Source: Crocinitomix sp. (GTDB lineage: Bacteria; Bacteroidota; Bacteroidia; Flavobacteriales_D; Crocinitomicaceae). Taken from it: a DNA stretch of 64,000 nt. The stretch lies in NCBI GenBank assembly GCA_013138735.1, contig WTCE01000090.1, positions 1 through 64,000 of the forward strand. Direction: 5' to 3'. Numbering within the stretch: position 1 is the stretch's first letter; every line of letters starts with the position of its first letter. The position numbers were made by a program, and so were the translations under genes. Positions 3,214 to 11,444 of this stretch are shown piece after piece. Below the pieces are notes generated by a model that saw only the letters and a list, made by a program, of their open reading frames with translations, was not told the DNA's origin and made no database searches.

Positions 3214-4425
3214 TTATTGATGTACTTTTTCAATCGGGTTTAGTTCGATAAATTTTGAATAGGTGAAATTATACGGTTGATTAGTCAGGTCTAAATGATT
3301 TAGTTTCTGGTACCAATTATTATTAATTTCAGTCAAATCTGTTTCAATCTTATCATACAATTTTCTTCCTTTGTCAGTGAAAAGGGCATCCAGTCCGATA
3401 CACTCTTTAAGGAATGTGATGTCGTGCCGATACTTGTTGATATAGAAGCAAATTCTTCCGCGCGATTCATGCAGTTTTTGACCCCGGAAAGAATTCATTT
3501 CTAAGGCCTTATTTAAAAAAATTAGTGTGACATAATAAGTGTATAGTGCATGAAACAATATGTAAACCGTTCGCGTACCTTGATTGGTCTTATCTGTGAA
3601 ACTTTGTAAAAGTGTTTCTGGCAATAACTTTATAAAGTGTTCAGGTTCGGCAGTAATTGCATAAAAAATTACATGGCCGGTTTGATGCGCAATATCATCT
3701 ATGAAAAACACTTCATTATATTCAGGTTGGTAACAATGAAAGAATGCAGTACCATTGGCACTTGTAGTTGCAAATGAGTTTCCTGTGCCGTTAATTAAAT
3801 TAAAAACGACCATTTTATTCACTATTTTTTTGGTTAGTTCGTATTGCGCTGGAATTAATTGTTTCATCAATCGCCATGCGTTTTTTAACTGCTGAATTCG
3901 CTCTTTAGTAATTTCAGTTATATCCAATTCGATCTCAACCCCAGATACTTGTGGATGGCAAGCCTTTAAAACGTTTATAGGATACTTAATTATTTCTGGT
4001 CCACCCTCTTCTAGAAGACACAATGGTTCAAGTGTAAAAGCCACTTTTTCATCCTTAATGTATAATTCAATATCAAAATTGGACAGTGTTTTTATTGTAT
4101 ATTCTTGCTTATTAATAGACGTAATTACCCATCCAAAATTTGCCAAATAGATCCTACCAAAATCATCAGAATTAGCAATCATTTCTTTTGGTCTCAGCTT
4201 AGTTTGCATATAACCGTATAGCAAGTTCTCAAGCGTTAAGTTAGATTTATCTGGAAAACAAAATTGCGCAAACAAAAGAGGTTCTTGATAAATGTTTTCA
4301 TCATCAAAATCTATTAAATCAAAAACATCTGGATTATCCTTATACAAAAGGAATTGAATTTTCTCAATAAAATATTGCATCCCTATTTGGACGGTTTCTA
4401 AAAACAACGTTTCTCCTACGCTCAT
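3214..4425 (-). CDS. HExxH-like peptide-modification enzyme (putative RiPP tailoring)
   Basis: This 403-residue soluble protein has no signal peptide or membrane segment. It carries an HxxxH metal-binding motif, His247-Gln-Thr-Gly-His251, in the context DDIAHQTGHVIF. A later conserved-looking block, FHALYTYYV, contains His292, a candidate third metal ligand. This layout resembles the HEXXH-motif peptide-modification family (mod_HExxH), which occurs beside RiPP precursors and includes iron/2-oxoglutarate-dependent peptide beta-hydroxylases. Gln replaces the Glu of HExxH, which argues against a zinc protease. The context supports a peptide-modifying role: four small Gly-Gly-leader peptides lie just upstream on the same strand, separated by 223 bases holding a strong hairpin. 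Family membership is inferred from motif and context, and the reaction is not established. Confidence 0.6.
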   Translation of the reverse strand: MSVGETLFLETVQIGMQYFIEKIQFLLYKDNPDVFDLIDFDDENIYQEPLLFAQFCFPDKSNLTLENLLYGYMQTKLRPKEMIANSDDFGRIYLANFGWVITSINKQEYTIKTLSNFDIELYIKDEKVAFTLEPLCLLEEGGPEIIKYPINVLKACHPQVSGVEIELDITEITKERIQQLKNAWRLMKQLIPAQYELTKKIVNKMVVFNLINGTGNSFATTSANGTAFFHCYQPEYNEVFFIDDIAHQTGHVIFYAITAEPEHFIKLLPETLLQSFTDKTNQGTRTVYILFHALYTYYVTLIFLNKALEMNSFRGQKLHESRGRICFYINKYRHDITFLKECIGLDALFTDKGRKLYDKIETDLTEINNNWYQKLNHLDLTNQPYNFTYSKFIELNPIEKVHQ

Positions 4426-4579
4426 ATATTTGATAACTTATTAAAGTTTGCCACTGTTAATCTTGTCAAGAACAGTTTGGATGGCTGCTTTTCTCTAAAC
4501 TAAAAGATCATATTTTCCATGATAATGTCATTTACGTTCACCCCCTTTTTGGGCTATTCTTTAGTTCATGGATAATACA

Positions 4580-4617
4580 AGAATGCTCCGTACGAATGGT
4601 GCGTTACGGAACATTCT
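4580..4617 (-). terminator. Strong hairpin between precursors and enzyme (attenuator?)
   Basis: Nearly complementary arms of 15-16 bases (AGAATGCTCCGTACG and CGTTACGGAACATTCT) flank a 7-base loop. A T-run follows on the plus strand. On the minus strand, the direction of the surrounding genes, the 3' side reads CTTGTATTAT, a weaker tail. It sits between the last precursor and the modifying enzyme, so it could lower transcription of the enzyme relative to the precursors, or protect the precursor mRNA 3' end. Confidence 0.55.
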
Positions 4618-4648
4618 TTTTTTAAATTAGATTGCTTAGTTAAACTCT

Positions 4649-4789
4649 CTATATGATCTTTATCATTGGGTCGAAGTGACAATCTTGGGCAGTCCCACCT
4701 TTTATTTTATCAAGAACGTCATGTATTGATACATTCGCCGATTTTGCTTTAAAATCTGCAAGGCTCATTTTCTTCTGTTTATTTTTCAT
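4649..4789 (-). CDS. RiPP precursor peptide, divergent core
   Basis: This is a 46-residue peptide. I start it at the internal ATG at 4789 rather than the upstream in-frame ATG at 4831, because MKNKQKK gives the usual basic start of Bacteroidota Gly-Gly leaders and follows an AAAGAAAC stretch. The leader contains MSLADFKAKS and ends DVLDKIKGG, matching the L(N/D)xIKGG end of the three peptides upstream. The 14 residues after Gly-Gly (TAQDCHFDPMIKII) include Cys, His and two Asp and differ completely from the other cores. It is last in the precursor array and nearest the HxxxH enzyme. Gly-Gly leaders are normally removed by a C39 peptidase exporter, and none is visible in the window. Confidence 0.7.
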   Translation of the reverse strand: MKNKQKKMSLADFKAKSANVSIHDVLDKIKGGTAQDCHFDPMIKII

Positions 4790-4840
4790 AATTGTTTCTT
4801 TTTTCGATTTACAATCGTTTATGATGCGCAATTTGAATGA

Positions 4841-4963
4841 TTAAAATCCTACTATGTCCTCAATGATCATAGAGGAAGTTTGTCCTCCCTTAACTTGATT
4901 CAACATTGATTTAATCAGGATGTTTTTGATTTTGAATTGATCTATTTTCTTATTCTTTTTCAT
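4841..4963 (-). CDS. RiPP precursor peptide, paralogue 1
   Basis: A 40-codon gene, found by reading the minus strand. It has a basic start (MKKNKKIDQF), an amphipathic leader, NQVKGG, and the 13-residue core QTSSMIIEDIVGF. The core has Ser/Thr at positions 2-4 and adjacent Glu-Asp at 8-9. That resembles the donor/acceptor arrangement of omega-ester graspetides, although no ATP-grasp ligase is present. The same length, leader and core pattern recurs in the next two genes, which supports selection on the coding sequence. The peptide is the presumed substrate of the neighbouring HxxxH enzyme. The Gly-Gly site predicts cleavage by a C39-type peptidase exporter encoded elsewhere. Confidence 0.75.
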   Translation of the reverse strand: MKKNKKIDQFKIKNILIKSMLNQVKGGQTSSMIIEDIVGF

Positions 4964-5021
4964 GTTGTTAATTTTAAATTTTTATTGATTTTTTTTGTAT
5001 CAAAAAACTAGATTCGTATGA

Positions 5022-5144
5022 TTAAAACCCTAGTATGTCTTCAATGATTATAGAGGAGCTTTGCCCTCCTTTAATTTGATTCAACATTGATTTAATCAGG
5101 ATATTTTTGTTTTTGAATTGATCTATTTTTTTACTCTTTTTCAT
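5022..5144 (-). CDS. RiPP precursor peptide, paralogue 2
   Basis: A 40-codon gene nearly identical to its downstream neighbour: start MKKSKKIDQF, leader end NQIKGG, core QSSSIIIEDILGF. Relative to paralogue 1, the core differs at Thr2 to Ser, Met5 to Ile and Val11 to Leu, all conservative. The spacer to the next gene repeats the same AT-rich sequence, including a CTAGATTCG block, so the unit was copied with its spacer. The ATG at 5144 follows an A-rich leader on the minus strand. It is too short for ordinary gene callers. Confidence 0.75.
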   Translation of the reverse strand: MKKSKKIDQFKNKNILIKSMLNQIKGGQSSSIIIEDILGF

Positions 5145-5192
5145 GTTATTAATTTTAGATTTTTTTTGTATCAAAAGACTAGATTCGCATGG

Positions 5193-5315
5193 TTAAAACC
5201 CTGCTATGTCTTCAATGATTATAGAGGAGCTTTGCCCTCCTTTAATTTGATTCAACTTTGATTTTGTTAAAACTTTTTTGGCGTTAAATTGTGTTATTTC
5301 ATTCTTCTTTTTCAT
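5193..5315 (-). CDS. RiPP precursor peptide, paralogue 3 (first in array)
   Basis: A 40-codon gene at the head of the array, with start MKKKNEITQF, leader end NQIKGG and core QSSSIIIEDIAGF. Its leader is the most divergent of the three (NAKKVLTKSK in the middle), while the core differs from paralogue 2 only at residue 11. Conserved cores with drifting leaders are typical of expanded RiPP families. It lies 156 bases from the triple direct repeat in the divergent promoter region, which makes it the likely first gene of the precursor transcript. Confidence 0.75.
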   Translation of the reverse strand: MKKKNEITQFNAKKVLTKSKLNQIKGGQSSSIIIEDIAGF

Positions 5316-5470
5316 TATGTTTTATTTTTGATATAATGGAAACTGCACCATTACTTGCATTTAACTATTTCATCTTAAAAGTTAGCCTCATAGTAACCGA
5401 TATTTATGACCTGGATTAATGAGATGTTAACCCCAAGATATAACCAATATTCTGATAGATCTTAGTCAAT

Positions 5471-5622: not shown

Positions 5623-8586
5623 TTGATTGCATTTGTTTTATTCTCACGTCGGACACGGGGCTGGTTTGTCTTTTTTGCAATACTGTTCATTTCTGATTCC
5701 TGTTATGGTCAAAAAGCATCTTATAGCTATGAAATATTGGGGACTGAAGAAGGTCTAGCAAGCTCAGAAGTGTACACCGTAATAGAAGATAGTCGCGGAT
5801 ACCTTTGGTTTGGTACGGATGCGGGTGTCTCTAGATATGATGGTTATGAATTCACTAACTATACGGTTGTAGATGGTTTAATTGATAATACCATCTTTAA
5901 ACTACATGAGGACAATAAGGGGAGAATTTGGTGCATGGGATTTAGGAATGGAATATGTTATATCCAAAATGATCGTGTTCATCCGTATAGATATAACAAG
6001 CAACTAACTGACGCGATTCATGATCTAGGTTGGATATCCAACATTGTCGTTGATTCGAACGAAACAATCAGATTTAATCTAAGTCCTTGGGGATATGGCG
6101 AAATAAACAATCAGGGCATAATTGCGTTGGATGGTCATAAACCCAGAGATACTGTTGTACACAGAATTGTAAACTCGGATGGTTCATTAATCGATTTAAT
6201 TTGTGATTTGTCAAATAGCCCTGTTCGGCGCCTCACAATAATTGATAGGGGTATTAAACGTTTCGACAAACCTCTTGAGGCTAACCCTTTTCATGTTTAT
6301 TCTTACCCCGTTGATTCAGGAGCATACTTTTTTAATTTGGGCACAATAATCGGTTATATTGATAGGGATACAATTCTTGTAAAACATCTTCCAGTTATTC
6401 CAATGTCCTTTAATAGAGATGATAAAGGGCGTGTTTGGATTGCTTATTTGAATAAGGGCATAGCCGTTTATAATTCAGTATTTGACTTGTTTGATGGGAG
6501 GCCTCCCGCATTGCAACTATTAGATGGGTTTAATATTTCGAAAATATTAAATCAACCTGGCTCTGGCATGTGGCTTTCTCTTGAAAACAGAGGTGTTTGT
6601 CATATTTACAACTACGATATAGAAAACTACTTTTTTGATGCGGTAAAACCGAATGGTATTCCTGCCTTAGCTAAAAATGATTCGAATGAACTATTTCTTT
6701 CAGTTCCGAACGGAGATTTTTATAAAATAAATGCGGCAGGCACATTTTTACCAATAATTAAAGGGTATTCTAATGCCAGTGATATTTATGTGGATGAAGA
6801 AAAAAAGAAAATATATGTGGCAACTTTCGACTTCAGGAATGAATCAATAAAGAGTAGCAATGGGTATGAATTCAACTATATCCATGGACGCGGAATAAAG
6901 GTGCTAAATGATAGTTCTATCTGGGTTTTGTCTCCCCAGTCTTTGCAATTAAAAGTCAATAACGAAACTACTTTTAAAACGGAGGGATATCAATTTTTAA
7001 AAACCATTTTTAAAGATGAACAAGGAACTATTTGGCTGGGCGGAAATGGCGGGTTTTTTAAAATGGAAAATCGGAAATTAATTTCCTGTAATGCATTACT
7101 TGGGTTAGAAAACAAACAAATCAAAATAAACAAAATCAGGGGGCTTAAAAATGGAACCATGATGATTGCCACTAAAAATGATGGACTTTTATTGCTTTCT
7201 CCATCCAAAAGTGTCCTTCATATTCCTTTTAAAGAAGACGTTATTTTAGACATGTATTTGGATGATGATGGTGAATTATGGATAGGTACCAATAATGGAA
7301 TTATTCGCTTAAAGCCTAATCTATTGGGTGAATATTCGGTGCAGCGTATCAATCATTTAAACGGGCTTTCTTCGAATCAAATAAACTGTATTAATGGAAT
7401 TGATGATTTTATATATGCAGGCACAGAGAATGGTTTAGTAAGATTCAATAAACGGGAAGTTTTACCTCTAAATTTGATTCCAAAACTTAGTATTCAATCC
7501 ATTTCTGTTAATGGTGATATAACAGGATTAGCCAATGACTATCAATTAAGCCATGATCAAAATAATATAGAGTTTTTCTTTTCTGGACGCTCTCACGACC
7601 ATTCTGGAAACCTAAAATATCGTTATAAATTAAAAGGGGCTGATGAAAACTGGCTTTATACGGGTAATAGAATAGTCCGCTATCCTTCATTAGCGCCAGG
7701 GGATTATCAATTTAAAGTTGCTGCGTCAAACGGTGTAAGTGCTTGGAGCGATTTCAGCCAAATAAACATAACCATAAATAAGCCCTGGTGGAAAACAACT
7801 TATTTTATTCTCGCCCTGATCATTTTAGGACTCACGCTTGTTTTTTCAATTTATTTCCTTCGTCTTAAAAGTAAAACGCAGGAATATGAAAAATCAAGAC
7901 AAATAGAGGAACAAAAACTTAAGCTAATTGAAGCAAAATTGGTGGCCTTGCGTTCGCAAATGAATCCTCATTTCACATTTAATTCGCTGAACGCGATCCA
8001 AAATGTTTTAGTCAATTTTAGTGTTAAAGAGGCCATAAATTATATGAGCAACTTCTCAACACTCATTCGAGGAATTCTAGAAAATTCAGAAAAATTTTAT
8101 ATGCAACTTGATGAAGAGCTAGAGATGCTTAAACTTTATGTTGATCTTGAAAATTTACGTTTTGGAAATACGATTGATTATCAGGTTCAAGTAGATCTTA
8201 TCGCTGAAGAGAGCTTTATCGAAATTCCATCAATGATTTTGCAGCCTTTTATCGAAAATGCCATTATACATGGCTTGGCGCCTAAAAAAAATGGTGATCG
8301 CAAGCTCATTTTAAGTTTTAAAGAAGATGAGCGGAATATATATTGTACCGTTCAAGATTCCGGAATAGGACGAAAAGCAGCAAAAGAAATTAAGGAACAG
8401 AGCGGACTGAAACGGCAATCGTTTGGAATCAAAATTGCGGAAGAACGTCTGAAGTTATTGGCGGGGGGAAAAACAAATGAATTCACTTTTCATATCAGCG
8501 ACTTATATGATCAGAACGGCGAAGTTACTGGAACTAAAGTGACAATTAAATTTAAAAAAGGAATCTATGTCAATGAAAATAATTGA
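5623..8586 (+). CDS. Propeller-sensor histidine kinase (LytS-type)
   Basis: This 987-residue membrane sensor kinase starts at TTG. The first 30 residues form a signal peptide ending CYGQ, which supports that start. The periplasmic part is two-component-regulator propeller repeats (LGLENKQIKINKI and GLSSNQINCI are typical), followed by a Y_Y_Y domain with a YRYKLKG / W signature near 650-715. One membrane helix lies at about 725-748, then a short coiled coil. The His_kinase domain carries the phospho-acceptor His783 in MNPHFTFNSLN; the family usually has Leu in place of that Thr. The HATPase has IENAIIHGL and DSGIGR. It overlaps its response-regulator gene by 20 bases. Facing the RiPP array, it may sense an extracellular cue for it. 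Confidence 0.88.
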   Translation: MIAFVLFSRRTRGWFVFFAILFISDSCYGQKASYSYEILGTEEGLASSEVYTVIEDSRGYLWFGTDAGVSRYDGYEFTNYTVVDGLIDNTIFKLHEDNKGRIWCMGFRNGICYIQNDRVHPYRYNKQLTDAIHDLGWISNIVVDSNETIRFNLSPWGYGEINNQGIIALDGHKPRDTVVHRIVNSDGSLIDLICDLSNSPVRRLTIIDRGIKRFDKPLEANPFHVYSYPVDSGAYFFNLGTIIGYIDRDTILVKHLPVIPMSFNRDDKGRVWIAYLNKGIAVYNSVFDLFDGRPPALQLLDGFNISKILNQPGSGMWLSLENRGVCHIYNYDIENYFFDAVKPNGIPALAKNDSNELFLSVPNGDFYKINAAGTFLPIIKGYSNASDIYVDEEKKKIYVATFDFRNESIKSSNGYEFNYIHGRGIKVLNDSSIWVLSPQSLQLKVNNETTFKTEGYQFLKTIFKDEQGTIWLGGNGGFFKMENRKLISCNALLGLENKQIKINKIRGLKNGTMMIATKNDGLLLLSPSKSVLHIPFKEDVILDMYLDDDGELWIGTNNGIIRLKPNLLGEYSVQRINHLNGLSSNQINCINGIDDFIYAGTENGLVRFNKREVLPLNLIPKLSIQSISVNGDITGLANDYQLSHDQNNIEFFFSGRSHDHSGNLKYRYKLKGADENWLYTGNRIVRYPSLAPGDYQFKVAASNGVSAWSDFSQINITINKPWWKTTYFILALIILGLTLVFSIYFLRLKSKTQEYEKSRQIEEQKLKLIEAKLVALRSQMNPHFTFNSLNAIQNVLVNFSVKEAINYMSNFSTLIRGILENSEKFYMQLDEELEMLKLYVDLENLRFGNTIDYQVQVDLIAEESFIEIPSMILQPFIENAIIHGLAPKKNGDRKLILSFKEDERNIYCTVQDSGIGRKAAKEIKEQSGLKRQSFGIKIAEERLKLLAGGKTNEFTFHISDLYDQNGEVTGTKVTIKFKKGIYVNENN

Positions 8587-9334
8587 TGCGGTAATAATTG
8601 ATGATGAGGCACCAGCAAGAGAAATGCTCAAAACACTGTTGTCTGAATATTTTAATCATATTCGAGTCATAGGAGAGGCTGATTCAGTTCAGGAAGGTGT
8701 TCAAGTTTTAAAAAAATGCAACCCAGCGGTCGTTTTTTTGGACATCAATTTGTCTGACGGAAGTGGTTTTAATCTTTTAGAAAAATTGGATAATGTCCAA
8801 TTTCAAATCATTTTTGTAACGGCTTATAATTCCTACGCAATTAATGCCTTCAAAGTAAATGCATTAGATTATATTTTAAAACCTATCGGCTTATCCGAAT
8901 TGGAAAGAGCAATCGAGCGTCTAAATGAAACTTCTCCAACAATTAGTGAGAATGATTTGCCGGAAATCGTTGCCAATTGGCGGCAGCAAAATAATGACCA
9001 ATCTAGTAAGTTAGCAATTCGAGAATTTGATGGCGTCCGGTTTATTCAGATTGGCGAAATAATTCGGTGTCGATCGCACAACAACTATACTGAGTTTCAT
9101 ATGATGTCAGGTGAAAAAATTATGACATCCAAAACGCTAAAAGAGTATGCCAAAATTCTAGAAAGCTATAATTTCTTTAGAATTTATCAGTCACATTTGG
9201 TAAACCTTTTAATGGTAAAAAAAATCTTAAGCATTGAAGGTTTATATGTTGAAATGAACAATGGTGATGTCTTGGAGCTATCAAGAGATAAGAAAAAAAA
9301 TCTTTTTGAAAAGATGAAGAAACTACAAGCTTAA
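8567..9334 (+). CDS. LytTR response regulator
   Basis: This is a 255-residue DNA-binding response regulator. The receiver domain (about 5-125) has the acidic pocket IIDDEAP, phospho-acceptor Asp59 in VVFLDINLSDGSGF, the T in VTAYNSYA and Lys in ILKPI. The LytTR domain (about 155-250) has the usual IRCRSHNNYTEFH and FFRIYQSHLVNL blocks. The start overlaps the kinase end by 20 bases, so translation is coupled. A start two codons later (MKII) is possible. LytTR domains bind direct repeats about 21 bases apart, and the triple repeat upstream of its own operon is the obvious candidate target. Partner assignment to the adjacent kinase is secure from gene order. Confidence 0.92.
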   Translation: MSMKIIDAVIIDDEAPAREMLKTLLSEYFNHIRVIGEADSVQEGVQVLKKCNPAVVFLDINLSDGSGFNLLEKLDNVQFQIIFVTAYNSYAINAFKVNALDYILKPIGLSELERAIERLNETSPTISENDLPEIVANWRQQNNDQSSKLAIREFDGVRFIQIGEIIRCRSHNNYTEFHMMSGEKIMTSKTLKEYAKILESYNFFRIYQSHLVNLLMVKKILSIEGLYVEMNNGDVLELSRDKKKNLFEKMKKLQA

Positions 9335-11081: not shown

Positions 11082-11444
11082 TTCGGGTGTTGATGGAGAT
11101 GAGATCTGATAGACCAAAGCAGTCGACTATGTTTACTATTATTAAGTTAATAGCCGTGCAACATTATCGTCTTCACAAGAATAATATTACATGAATCCAT
11201 TAATAGTATAATTAGCCTTATTCCTTGATTAAATATAATATTTCCGGAAACAATGTTGGCACGTGAAATACTTCACCTGGGACGGCTTTAAGGAGCTGAA
11301 GTCTATTGTGTTGCTAACAACAGACAAGTTATTCTGAATAATAAAGCGAACAACAAATGGTAGCGATTTTCTTCGTAATATTGCATACCTAGTTTATTAC
11401 ACAATCCTTTTTCTGACAAAAACTACCTTAATAATCAGCTTACT

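Follow-up and report, generated by a model that had tools for sequence, protein, structure and literature searches.

The 64,000-nucleotide stretch of Crocinitomix sp. contig WTCE01000090.1 analyzed here, referred to in the following as the window, carries between positions 3214 and 5315 an enzyme gene preceded by four genes for short peptides with Gly-Gly leaders. The arrangement resembles a locus for a ribosomally synthesized and post-translationally modified peptide (RiPP), and it raises the question of which of the four peptides the enzyme modifies, and by what chemistry. The first-pass annotation of this DNA had suggested that a single tailoring enzyme acts on all four. Our analysis points to one: the enzyme gene and the gene for a 46-residue peptide probably form a minimal RiPP pathway, in which sequence comparison and a modeled fold predict Fe-dependent oxidation at a Cys-His pair. 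The five genes are listed here, with the evidence for each in parentheses:

3214–4425, minus strand: HQxGH enzyme, 403 residues (open reading frame, AlphaFold2 model, fold, profile–profile comparison, family alignment)
4649–4789, minus strand: predicted 46-residue precursor peptide, core TAQDCHFDPMIKII, with Cys5-His6 (leader profile, shared Cys-His core)
4841–4963, minus strand: 40-residue Gly-Gly peptide, core QTSSMIIEDIVGF, probably not a substrate of the enzyme (open reading frame, leader score, pattern search)
5022–5144, minus strand: 40-residue Gly-Gly peptide, core QSSSIIIEDILGF, probably not a substrate of the enzyme (open reading frame, leader score, pattern search)
5193–5315, minus strand: 40-residue Gly-Gly peptide, core QSSSIIIEDIAGF (open reading frame, ComC Pfam match of 22.7 bits against a gathering score of 20.4)

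Reading of the open reading frames (ORFs) gave the transcription order 5193–5315, 5022–5144 and 4841–4963 (40 codons each), followed by 4649–4789 (46 codons) and 3214–4425 (403 codons). For the 46-residue peptide and the middle 40-residue peptide (5022–5144), the mechanical ORF starts upstream at a TTG, and lengths were counted from the inner ATG. The four peptide genes lie in tandem on one strand, spaced by about 50 bases, ahead of the enzyme gene, and each leader terminates in Lys-Gly-Gly in the window translations. These peptides and the 403-residue enzyme, with its HQTGH motif and His292, were all present in the sequence as first described.

Single-sequence searches of Pfam, NCBIfam and the PDB with the enzyme returned only chance-level matches, and a profile search of PDB sequences with the enzyme family gave unrelated weak matches. 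TIGR04267 (curated cut-off 40 bits) had no match to the window enzyme even with E ≤10, nor to anything on the contig. It did match 19 of 49 family members with E ≤1, the lowest value being 2.2e-6. When ten relatives were scanned singly, seven matched, all below the cut-off and four along almost the full model length; the best score was 27.8 bits (30.2 for the same gene in another scan). Canonical TIGR04267 was found in 0 of 198 Bacteroidota genomes at E 1e-8, a search in which the control genomes were also silent, so that absence is not shown.

An AlphaFold2 model of the enzyme was built from the 49-row family alignment (predicted local distance difference test score 94.4). It matched PDB entry 22ob (SjiH-Ni) with a Z of 24.4 and a root-mean-square deviation (rmsd) of 4.3 over 349 residues at 13% identity, and entry 8s5f, the HExxH domain of the α-ketoglutarate (αKG) oxygenase ChlB, with a Z of 23.9 and an rmsd of 2.9 over 282 residues; the next structural match fell to Z 7.1. 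Foldseek gave E values of 3e-8 and 4e-8 for 8s5f and 22ob. Profile–profile alignment (hhalign) of the 49 members with five canonical mod_HExxH proteins, taken from gammaproteobacterial genomes, had a probability of 97.2 and an E value of 4.2e-11 over 183 columns. It placed HQTGH above HEASH, and R285 and H292 above the canonical R248 and H255, both invariant in the five proteins. Given the fold, this alignment and the scores below the TIGR04267 cut-off, we assign the enzyme, from model and profiles, to a separate, divergent branch of the HExxH oxygenase superfamily. The resemblance to mod_HExxH proteins proposed in the first pass was thus borne out as a distant relationship: the curated cut-off was missed, profile–profile comparison recovered the match, and the best hits of the predicted structure were HExxH oxygenases and not an unrelated family.

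Among 199 near genomes, three others carried enzyme relatives at E <1e-40; five of the nine genomes with an enzyme match (own genome included) were dropped as chance, with E values of 0.002 to 0.009. Across the phylum (395 genomes searched), relatives were found in three further genomes, together with one genome bearing a fragment. A contig collection yielded relatives at 45 loci, all in Bacteroidota save the proteobacterial L051, L055 and L056. Viral contigs held no enzyme relative and plasmids gave no enzyme match. Locus counts below refer to 46 loci, the 45 relatives plus the window; L014–L020 were excluded as duplicate records or loci, and the 49-row alignment omits L046, L049, L062 and L065, whose genes are short or broken. 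This spread, together with the copies of the 40-residue peptides elsewhere in the genome described below, indicates that the locus is more than a chance assembly of reading frames.

In the window enzyme, HQTGH occupies residues 247–251 (H247, Q248, H251), followed by R285 and H292. Equivalents of H247, H251 and H292 were all retained in 41 of the 49 rows, 36 with Gln and five with Glu between the motif histidines, a conservation that was partly selected for, since the search patterns for the contig collection required H[QE]xxH or a neighboring stretch and so favored intact motifs; Cys-His peptides were not selected in this way. The distal His was kept in 42 rows and the Arg at 285 in 40. The five HE-type rows (L052, L050, L054, L057 and L058) fell within one eight-row tree group that also holds three HQ rows. 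Five rows without HxxxH were second tandem enzyme copies (L036, 9483–10622; L038, 9467–10606; L041, 9904–11037; L042, 9475–10638; L047, 9441–10586). The peptide at these loci carries two Cys-His pairs, and the motif-less copies are possibly pseudoenzyme partners. Separately, in L010 (994–2643) and L014 (5494–7143), the enzyme and the small protein that follows it share one continuous ORF of 549 residues, either a true fusion or the result of a lost stop.

The metal site bears on a rival reading, in which the enzyme is a metalloprotease of the zincin type and shortens the leader or the core. Zincins have a fold similar to that of HExxH oxygenases, and PflC is able to hydrolyse its own peptide without a leader, according to PMC12636437; zinc peptidases also appeared among the weak structural matches to our model (Z ≤6.0). 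The position of the catalytic Glu, however, is Gln248 in the window enzyme, with Gln in 39 and Glu in five of the 49 family members, the structural match to αKG oxygenases was far better, and C39 peptidases for leader cleavage are already present at 31 of the 46 loci. With no catalytic Glu and a much stronger oxygenase match, the protease reading was rejected as very improbable.

The enzyme is encoded beside a Gly-Gly-leader peptide with a Cys-His core, mostly at positions 5 and 6, across Bacteroidota and at the three proteobacterial loci. A script found a Gly-Gly peptide with Cys-His in its first 20 core residues within 6.5 kb of the enzyme at 37 of the 46 loci, window included; these were all the loci where it detected any Gly-Gly peptide, and inspection by eye added L037 and L056 for a total of 39. 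Cys-His was present in 57 of 67 Gly-Gly ORFs at enzyme loci, some of which look spurious. Outside the window, 44 of 56 Cys-His peptides have Cys at core position 5, as does the window peptide. When the cores were shuffled (1000 rounds), Cys-His occurred on average 4.0 times (maximum 10) against 57 observed, and Cys5-His6 on average 0.25 times (maximum 3) against 45 observed. In a control of 17 C39 loci without the enzyme, none of 14 Gly-Gly peptides, which carry mixed leader types, had Cys-His, and 8 of the 17 loci gave no peptide. Sixteen control loci came from other genomes and one from the window genome itself. They cover 18 of 22 C39 matches; the four excluded were a 227-residue ORF in genome G210 and three C39 proteins that stand alone in the own genome. 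Some control loci, with open frames of 314 and 455 residues, are perhaps incomplete as exporters. Leader distance tracked enzyme distance over 35 loci (Mantel r 0.62, 0 of 2000 permutations), in a test that ignores species relatedness. Ten Cys-His peptides that were scanned matched no NCBIfam family above its cut-off.

Within the window, only the 46-residue peptide, which the first-pass annotation had described as divergent, fits the Cys-His pattern. Its leader ends in MSLADFKAKSANVSIHDVLDKIKGG and its core opens with TAQD-CH. Against a leader profile built from the 56 Cys-His peptides outside the window, it scored 35.0 bits and the 40-residue peptides at most 4.7; the leaders nearest to its own were those of L022 and L023, loci that also have close enzyme relatives. 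The 46-residue peptide therefore appears, by leader and core, to be the predicted substrate of the enzyme.

The three 40-residue peptides have cores of the SSSIIIEDIxGF type, with neither Cys nor His. The same family occurs at two more places in the genome, on contigs C27 (locus L079; one intact and one stop-ridden copy) and C150 (L080; three more distant copies), and no second copy of the enzyme was found in this genome. The core pattern, run over 128 sequences (overlapping ones included) with the relatives' enzyme loci among them, hit only the own genome, and a search with the peptide sequence matched one of 59 genomes, again its own. The different leader, the enzyme-free kin on C27 and C150 and the absence from the relatives' loci thus suggest that these peptides are probably independent of the enzyme and form a separate, perhaps signaling, family. 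In total, the family has seven intact copies and one decayed copy with acidic-hydrophobic cores, and each group adjoins a histidine-kinase gene.

These results bear directly on the proposal that the enzyme modifies all four peptides. Tandem same-strand genes with gaps of about 50 bases, preceding the enzyme gene, and a Lys-Gly-Gly at the end of every leader would fit such a scheme. Yet the leader scores set the 40-residue peptides apart from the 46-residue one, their kin exist on contigs C27 and C150 of a genome without a second enzyme and are missing from the relatives' enzyme loci, and their cores offer no Cys or His; we regard modification of all four as improbable. The co-occurrence of enzyme and peptides that the first-pass annotation had proposed as a check held for the 46-residue type and was not seen for the 40-residue type, and the core it had called new, SSSIIIEDIxGF, which comes without the enzyme-linked leader or Cys-His, is therefore probably not the modified one.

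For the 46-residue peptide, we propose that the enzyme binds the SL-x-x-FK...GG leader, which would place Cys5-His6 at the iron for oxidation, most simply β-hydroxylation of His6 or Cys5. A C39-peptidase exporter would then cleave after Gly-Gly and secrete the peptide; in most relatives seen, this exporter is encoded within the locus, whereas here contig C126 would supply it from an unlinked C39-ABC/HlyD operon. A different system, sharing the operon or merely its location, is the probable home of the three 40-residue peptides. Metal, cofactor, reaction and exporter are inferred for the window pathway. For the relatives, PMC13060819 and PMC12636437 report HExxH enzymes that use Fe and αKG, with His, Asp, Phe, Gln and Pro as the residues hydroxylated.

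Neighboring genes at the other loci bear further on the chemistry. Names follow the representatives of similarity clusters rather than each gene individually, and reading was used to pool a few small clusters. On this basis, C39-ABC proteins were found at 31 of the 46 loci and HlyD at 31 (representatives of both confirmed), TPR proteins at 32, a small protein cluster (c0, representative without a Pfam or NCBIfam match) at 22, aldo-keto reductases at 10, intramembrane-protease-like proteins at 8, metallo-β-lactamase-fold proteins at 5 and lantibiotic-dehydratase-like proteins at 3. CARME-type (carnosine N-methyltransferase, ovoA C-terminus-like) genes occurred at 10 loci, in two clusters with one representative each confirmed, and point to chemistry at His. 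CmoA-like genes (carboxy-S-adenosylmethionine synthase family) occurred at seven, all alongside CARME-type genes (L053, L060, L066, L050, L054, L057 and L058); their representative scored 149.8 bits, below the NCBIfam cut-off of 193.3.

An oxidative Cys-His linkage, or another Cys-centered change, might accordingly take the place of hydroxylation. What is conserved is the adjacent Cys-His pair rather than a lone His, and some clusters add the CARME-type and CmoA-like genes; a Cys-Tyr crosslink made by an αKG enzyme and thiol carboxymethylation by a carboxy-S-adenosylmethionine enzyme in another RiPP are mentioned in PMC12636437 and PMC12636315, respectively. The HExxH enzymes reported in PMC13060819, on the other hand, are hydroxylases, and methyltransferase relatives occur at only 10 of the 46 loci, with none seen in the window. 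We consider a Cys-centered change rather unlikely. We hold just as tentatively a broader proposal, that Gly-Gly leader, Cys5-His6 and HQxGH oxygenase define a widespread Bacteroidota class whose Cys-His pair is oxidized, for example by linkage, in a way new for HExxH enzymes, some clusters adding methyl or carboxymethyl transfer through the CARME-type and CmoA-like genes. If true, the window would be the smallest version of that class, with one enzyme and one peptide.

At 21 of the 46 loci, a C39 exporter was present without a cluster member for methyltransferase, aldo-keto reductase, dehydratase or SPASM protein, with unlabeled genes scanned only in part. Together with the varied neighbors, this suggests that the oxygenase occurs in varied RiPP settings and may often act alone. 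The earlier idea of one tailoring enzyme working by itself thus survives for the 46-residue peptide and not for all four. In the window contig (C54), a profile search gave no C39 match; the C39-ABC/HlyD/outer-membrane-factor operon of the genome lies unlinked on C126. ATP-grasp, radical SAM and lanthionine enzymes were not recognized in the window by reading ORF translations, which beyond 13.5 kb was confined to ORFs of at least 110 residues; of the absences first claimed, that of a C39 exporter therefore stands on a profile search and the others on reading. The C126 operon (L081, 5607–10361) has a Gly-Gly peptide of its own (11167–11310), with core GCYSNECCAPSLN.

Several points weigh against the proposed pathway, besides the partly selected motifs, the spurious-looking ORFs, the mixed leaders of the control and the uncorrected relatedness given above. 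The window enzyme lacks a literal HExxH motif and reaches the cut-off of no Pfam or NCBIfam model. Two HQxxH rows have lost H292, to Tyr (L023) and Asn (L047), Lys replaces the first motif His in L030, and only 40 of the 49 rows have Arg at 285, which makes a role for R285 less secure than one for the histidines. At seven of the 46 loci, no such Cys-His peptide turned up: L033, L048, L049 and L052, on contigs of at most 6.3 kb, and L046, L061 and L064, of about 17 kb; in L061, a Gly-Gly ORF carries Cys-His solely at its far end.

The window locus also lacks the exporter and other neighbors usual in relatives, and the enzyme sits on a long branch (1.19; median 0.52). The pathway could therefore be in decay, with enzyme and peptide persisting without a product. 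A leader-like fragment upstream of the enzyme gene (4444–4494, minus strand, RKAAIQTVLDKINSGKL), bounded by two stops and resembling a second leader end (VLDKIKGG), is perhaps the relic of a duplicated precursor gene and would fit this account. Both frames are nevertheless intact and every aligned metal-site residue is kept; the genome has an unlinked exporter; and ten relative loci of at least 16 kb are, like the window, without a C39-ABC cluster member, one of them (L040) having C39 fragments. Decay is thus unlikely, and we retain the minimal enzyme–peptide pathway as the preferred reading.

The remaining features of the locus are as follows:

4579–4618, minus strand: strong hairpin between the 46-residue peptide gene and the enzyme gene (folding energy against shuffles)
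5334–5353, minus strand: palindrome of 20 bp, TAATGGTGCAGTTTCCATTA, ahead of the first 40-residue peptide gene (sequence comparison)
5623–8586, plus strand: LytS-type histidine kinase with Reg_prop/Y_Y_Y sensor, divergent (domain match)
8567–9334, plus strand: LytTR response regulator, its gene overlapping the kinase gene (domain match)

The hairpin region (4560–4650) had a folding energy of −22.8 kcal/mol (z −4.64), with 0 of 200 shuffles equally stable, and the hairpin is a possible attenuator or mRNA stabilizer. Rfam gave no window match at gathering scores, a promoter scan of the window showed no surplus over shuffles, and a terminator scan gave four hits against 1.0 expected, two of them within peptide genes.

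At all three sites of the 40-residue peptides, the closest larger gene to one side encodes a histidine kinase. In the window, the LytS-type kinase, accompanied by a LytTR regulator, lies divergently 307 bases from the first 40-residue peptide; on C150, a LytS-type kinase lies 333 bases from the peptides on the same strand; and on C27, a GAF/HisKA_2 kinase stands beside the copies. Kinases are common in such genomes, and the 6.84 Mb of this one gave 22 matches of the LytS type. The palindrome, TAATGGNGCAGTNTCCATTA, is found ahead of the first window copy and of both C27 copies (L079, 8177–8196 and 8381–8400, plus strand). The kinase at 5623–8586 is a possible partner of the 40-residue peptides, and a role for these as Gly-Gly pheromones in Bacteroidota is a possible, post hoc idea.

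PMC13060819 describes HExxH oxygenases as recognized only recently as peptide-modifying, with reactions not yet predictable. The branch described here has a putative target pair whose core position hardly varies, and it appears in the window as a single enzyme with a single short peptide, so that co-expression of two genes could probe the whole class. Its change of Glu to Gln bears on how oxygenases and proteases are separated within one fold. The locus also suggests that a peptide should not be named a substrate on proximity and a Gly-Gly site alone: the peptides that stand out here by their repetition are probably bystanders. In the literature on HExxH enzymes, Gly-Gly RiPPs of Bacteroidota, methyltransferase neighbors and Gly-Gly signaling, neither the HQxGH branch nor the Cys-His peptides were recognized among the matches listed, which is weak evidence given the thin coverage of subscription journals. 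The fold and general function are known, and the HQxGH branch, the Cys-His peptides and their spread in Bacteroidota are apparently undescribed.

Compared with known systems, the 40-residue peptides resemble ComC-type Gly-Gly pheromones (PF03047), which they match weakly, one above the gathering score of 20.4 (22.7 bits for 5193–5315) and the other two at 14.7 and 14.9 bits, and they have adjoining kinase genes. They differ in their Gram-negative host and in a locus without an exporter, and their signaling role is putative. Grasp-with-spasm systems (TIGR04192/TIGR04193) are approached by one relative, L035 from a Fluviicola metagenome-assembled genome, in which the enzyme gene lies beside an ATP-grasp gene (272 bits against a TIGR04192 cut-off of 230) and a SPASM protein scoring 73 bits, under the TIGR04193 cut-off of 175; in the window, by contrast, neither an ATP-grasp nor a SPASM gene was recognized by reading. 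The top structural match, SjiH (22ob, entered as 'Crystal structure of SjiH-Ni'), is only 13% identical in sequence. The closest comparison is with the αKG-HExxH peptide β-hydroxylases (TIGR04267, IPR026337), such as ChlB-HExxH, PflC/PosC, PesO and BpmH. Unlike these, the window enzyme has HQxGH in place of HExxH and falls under the TIGR04267 cut-off, and its locus combines a Gly-Gly leader with a Cys-His core and has no radical SAM fusion; nor was an MNIO partner recognized in the window by reading. What the two share is the fold, an HxxxH motif with a further His and an Arg that align, and a small precursor peptide encoded next to the enzyme.

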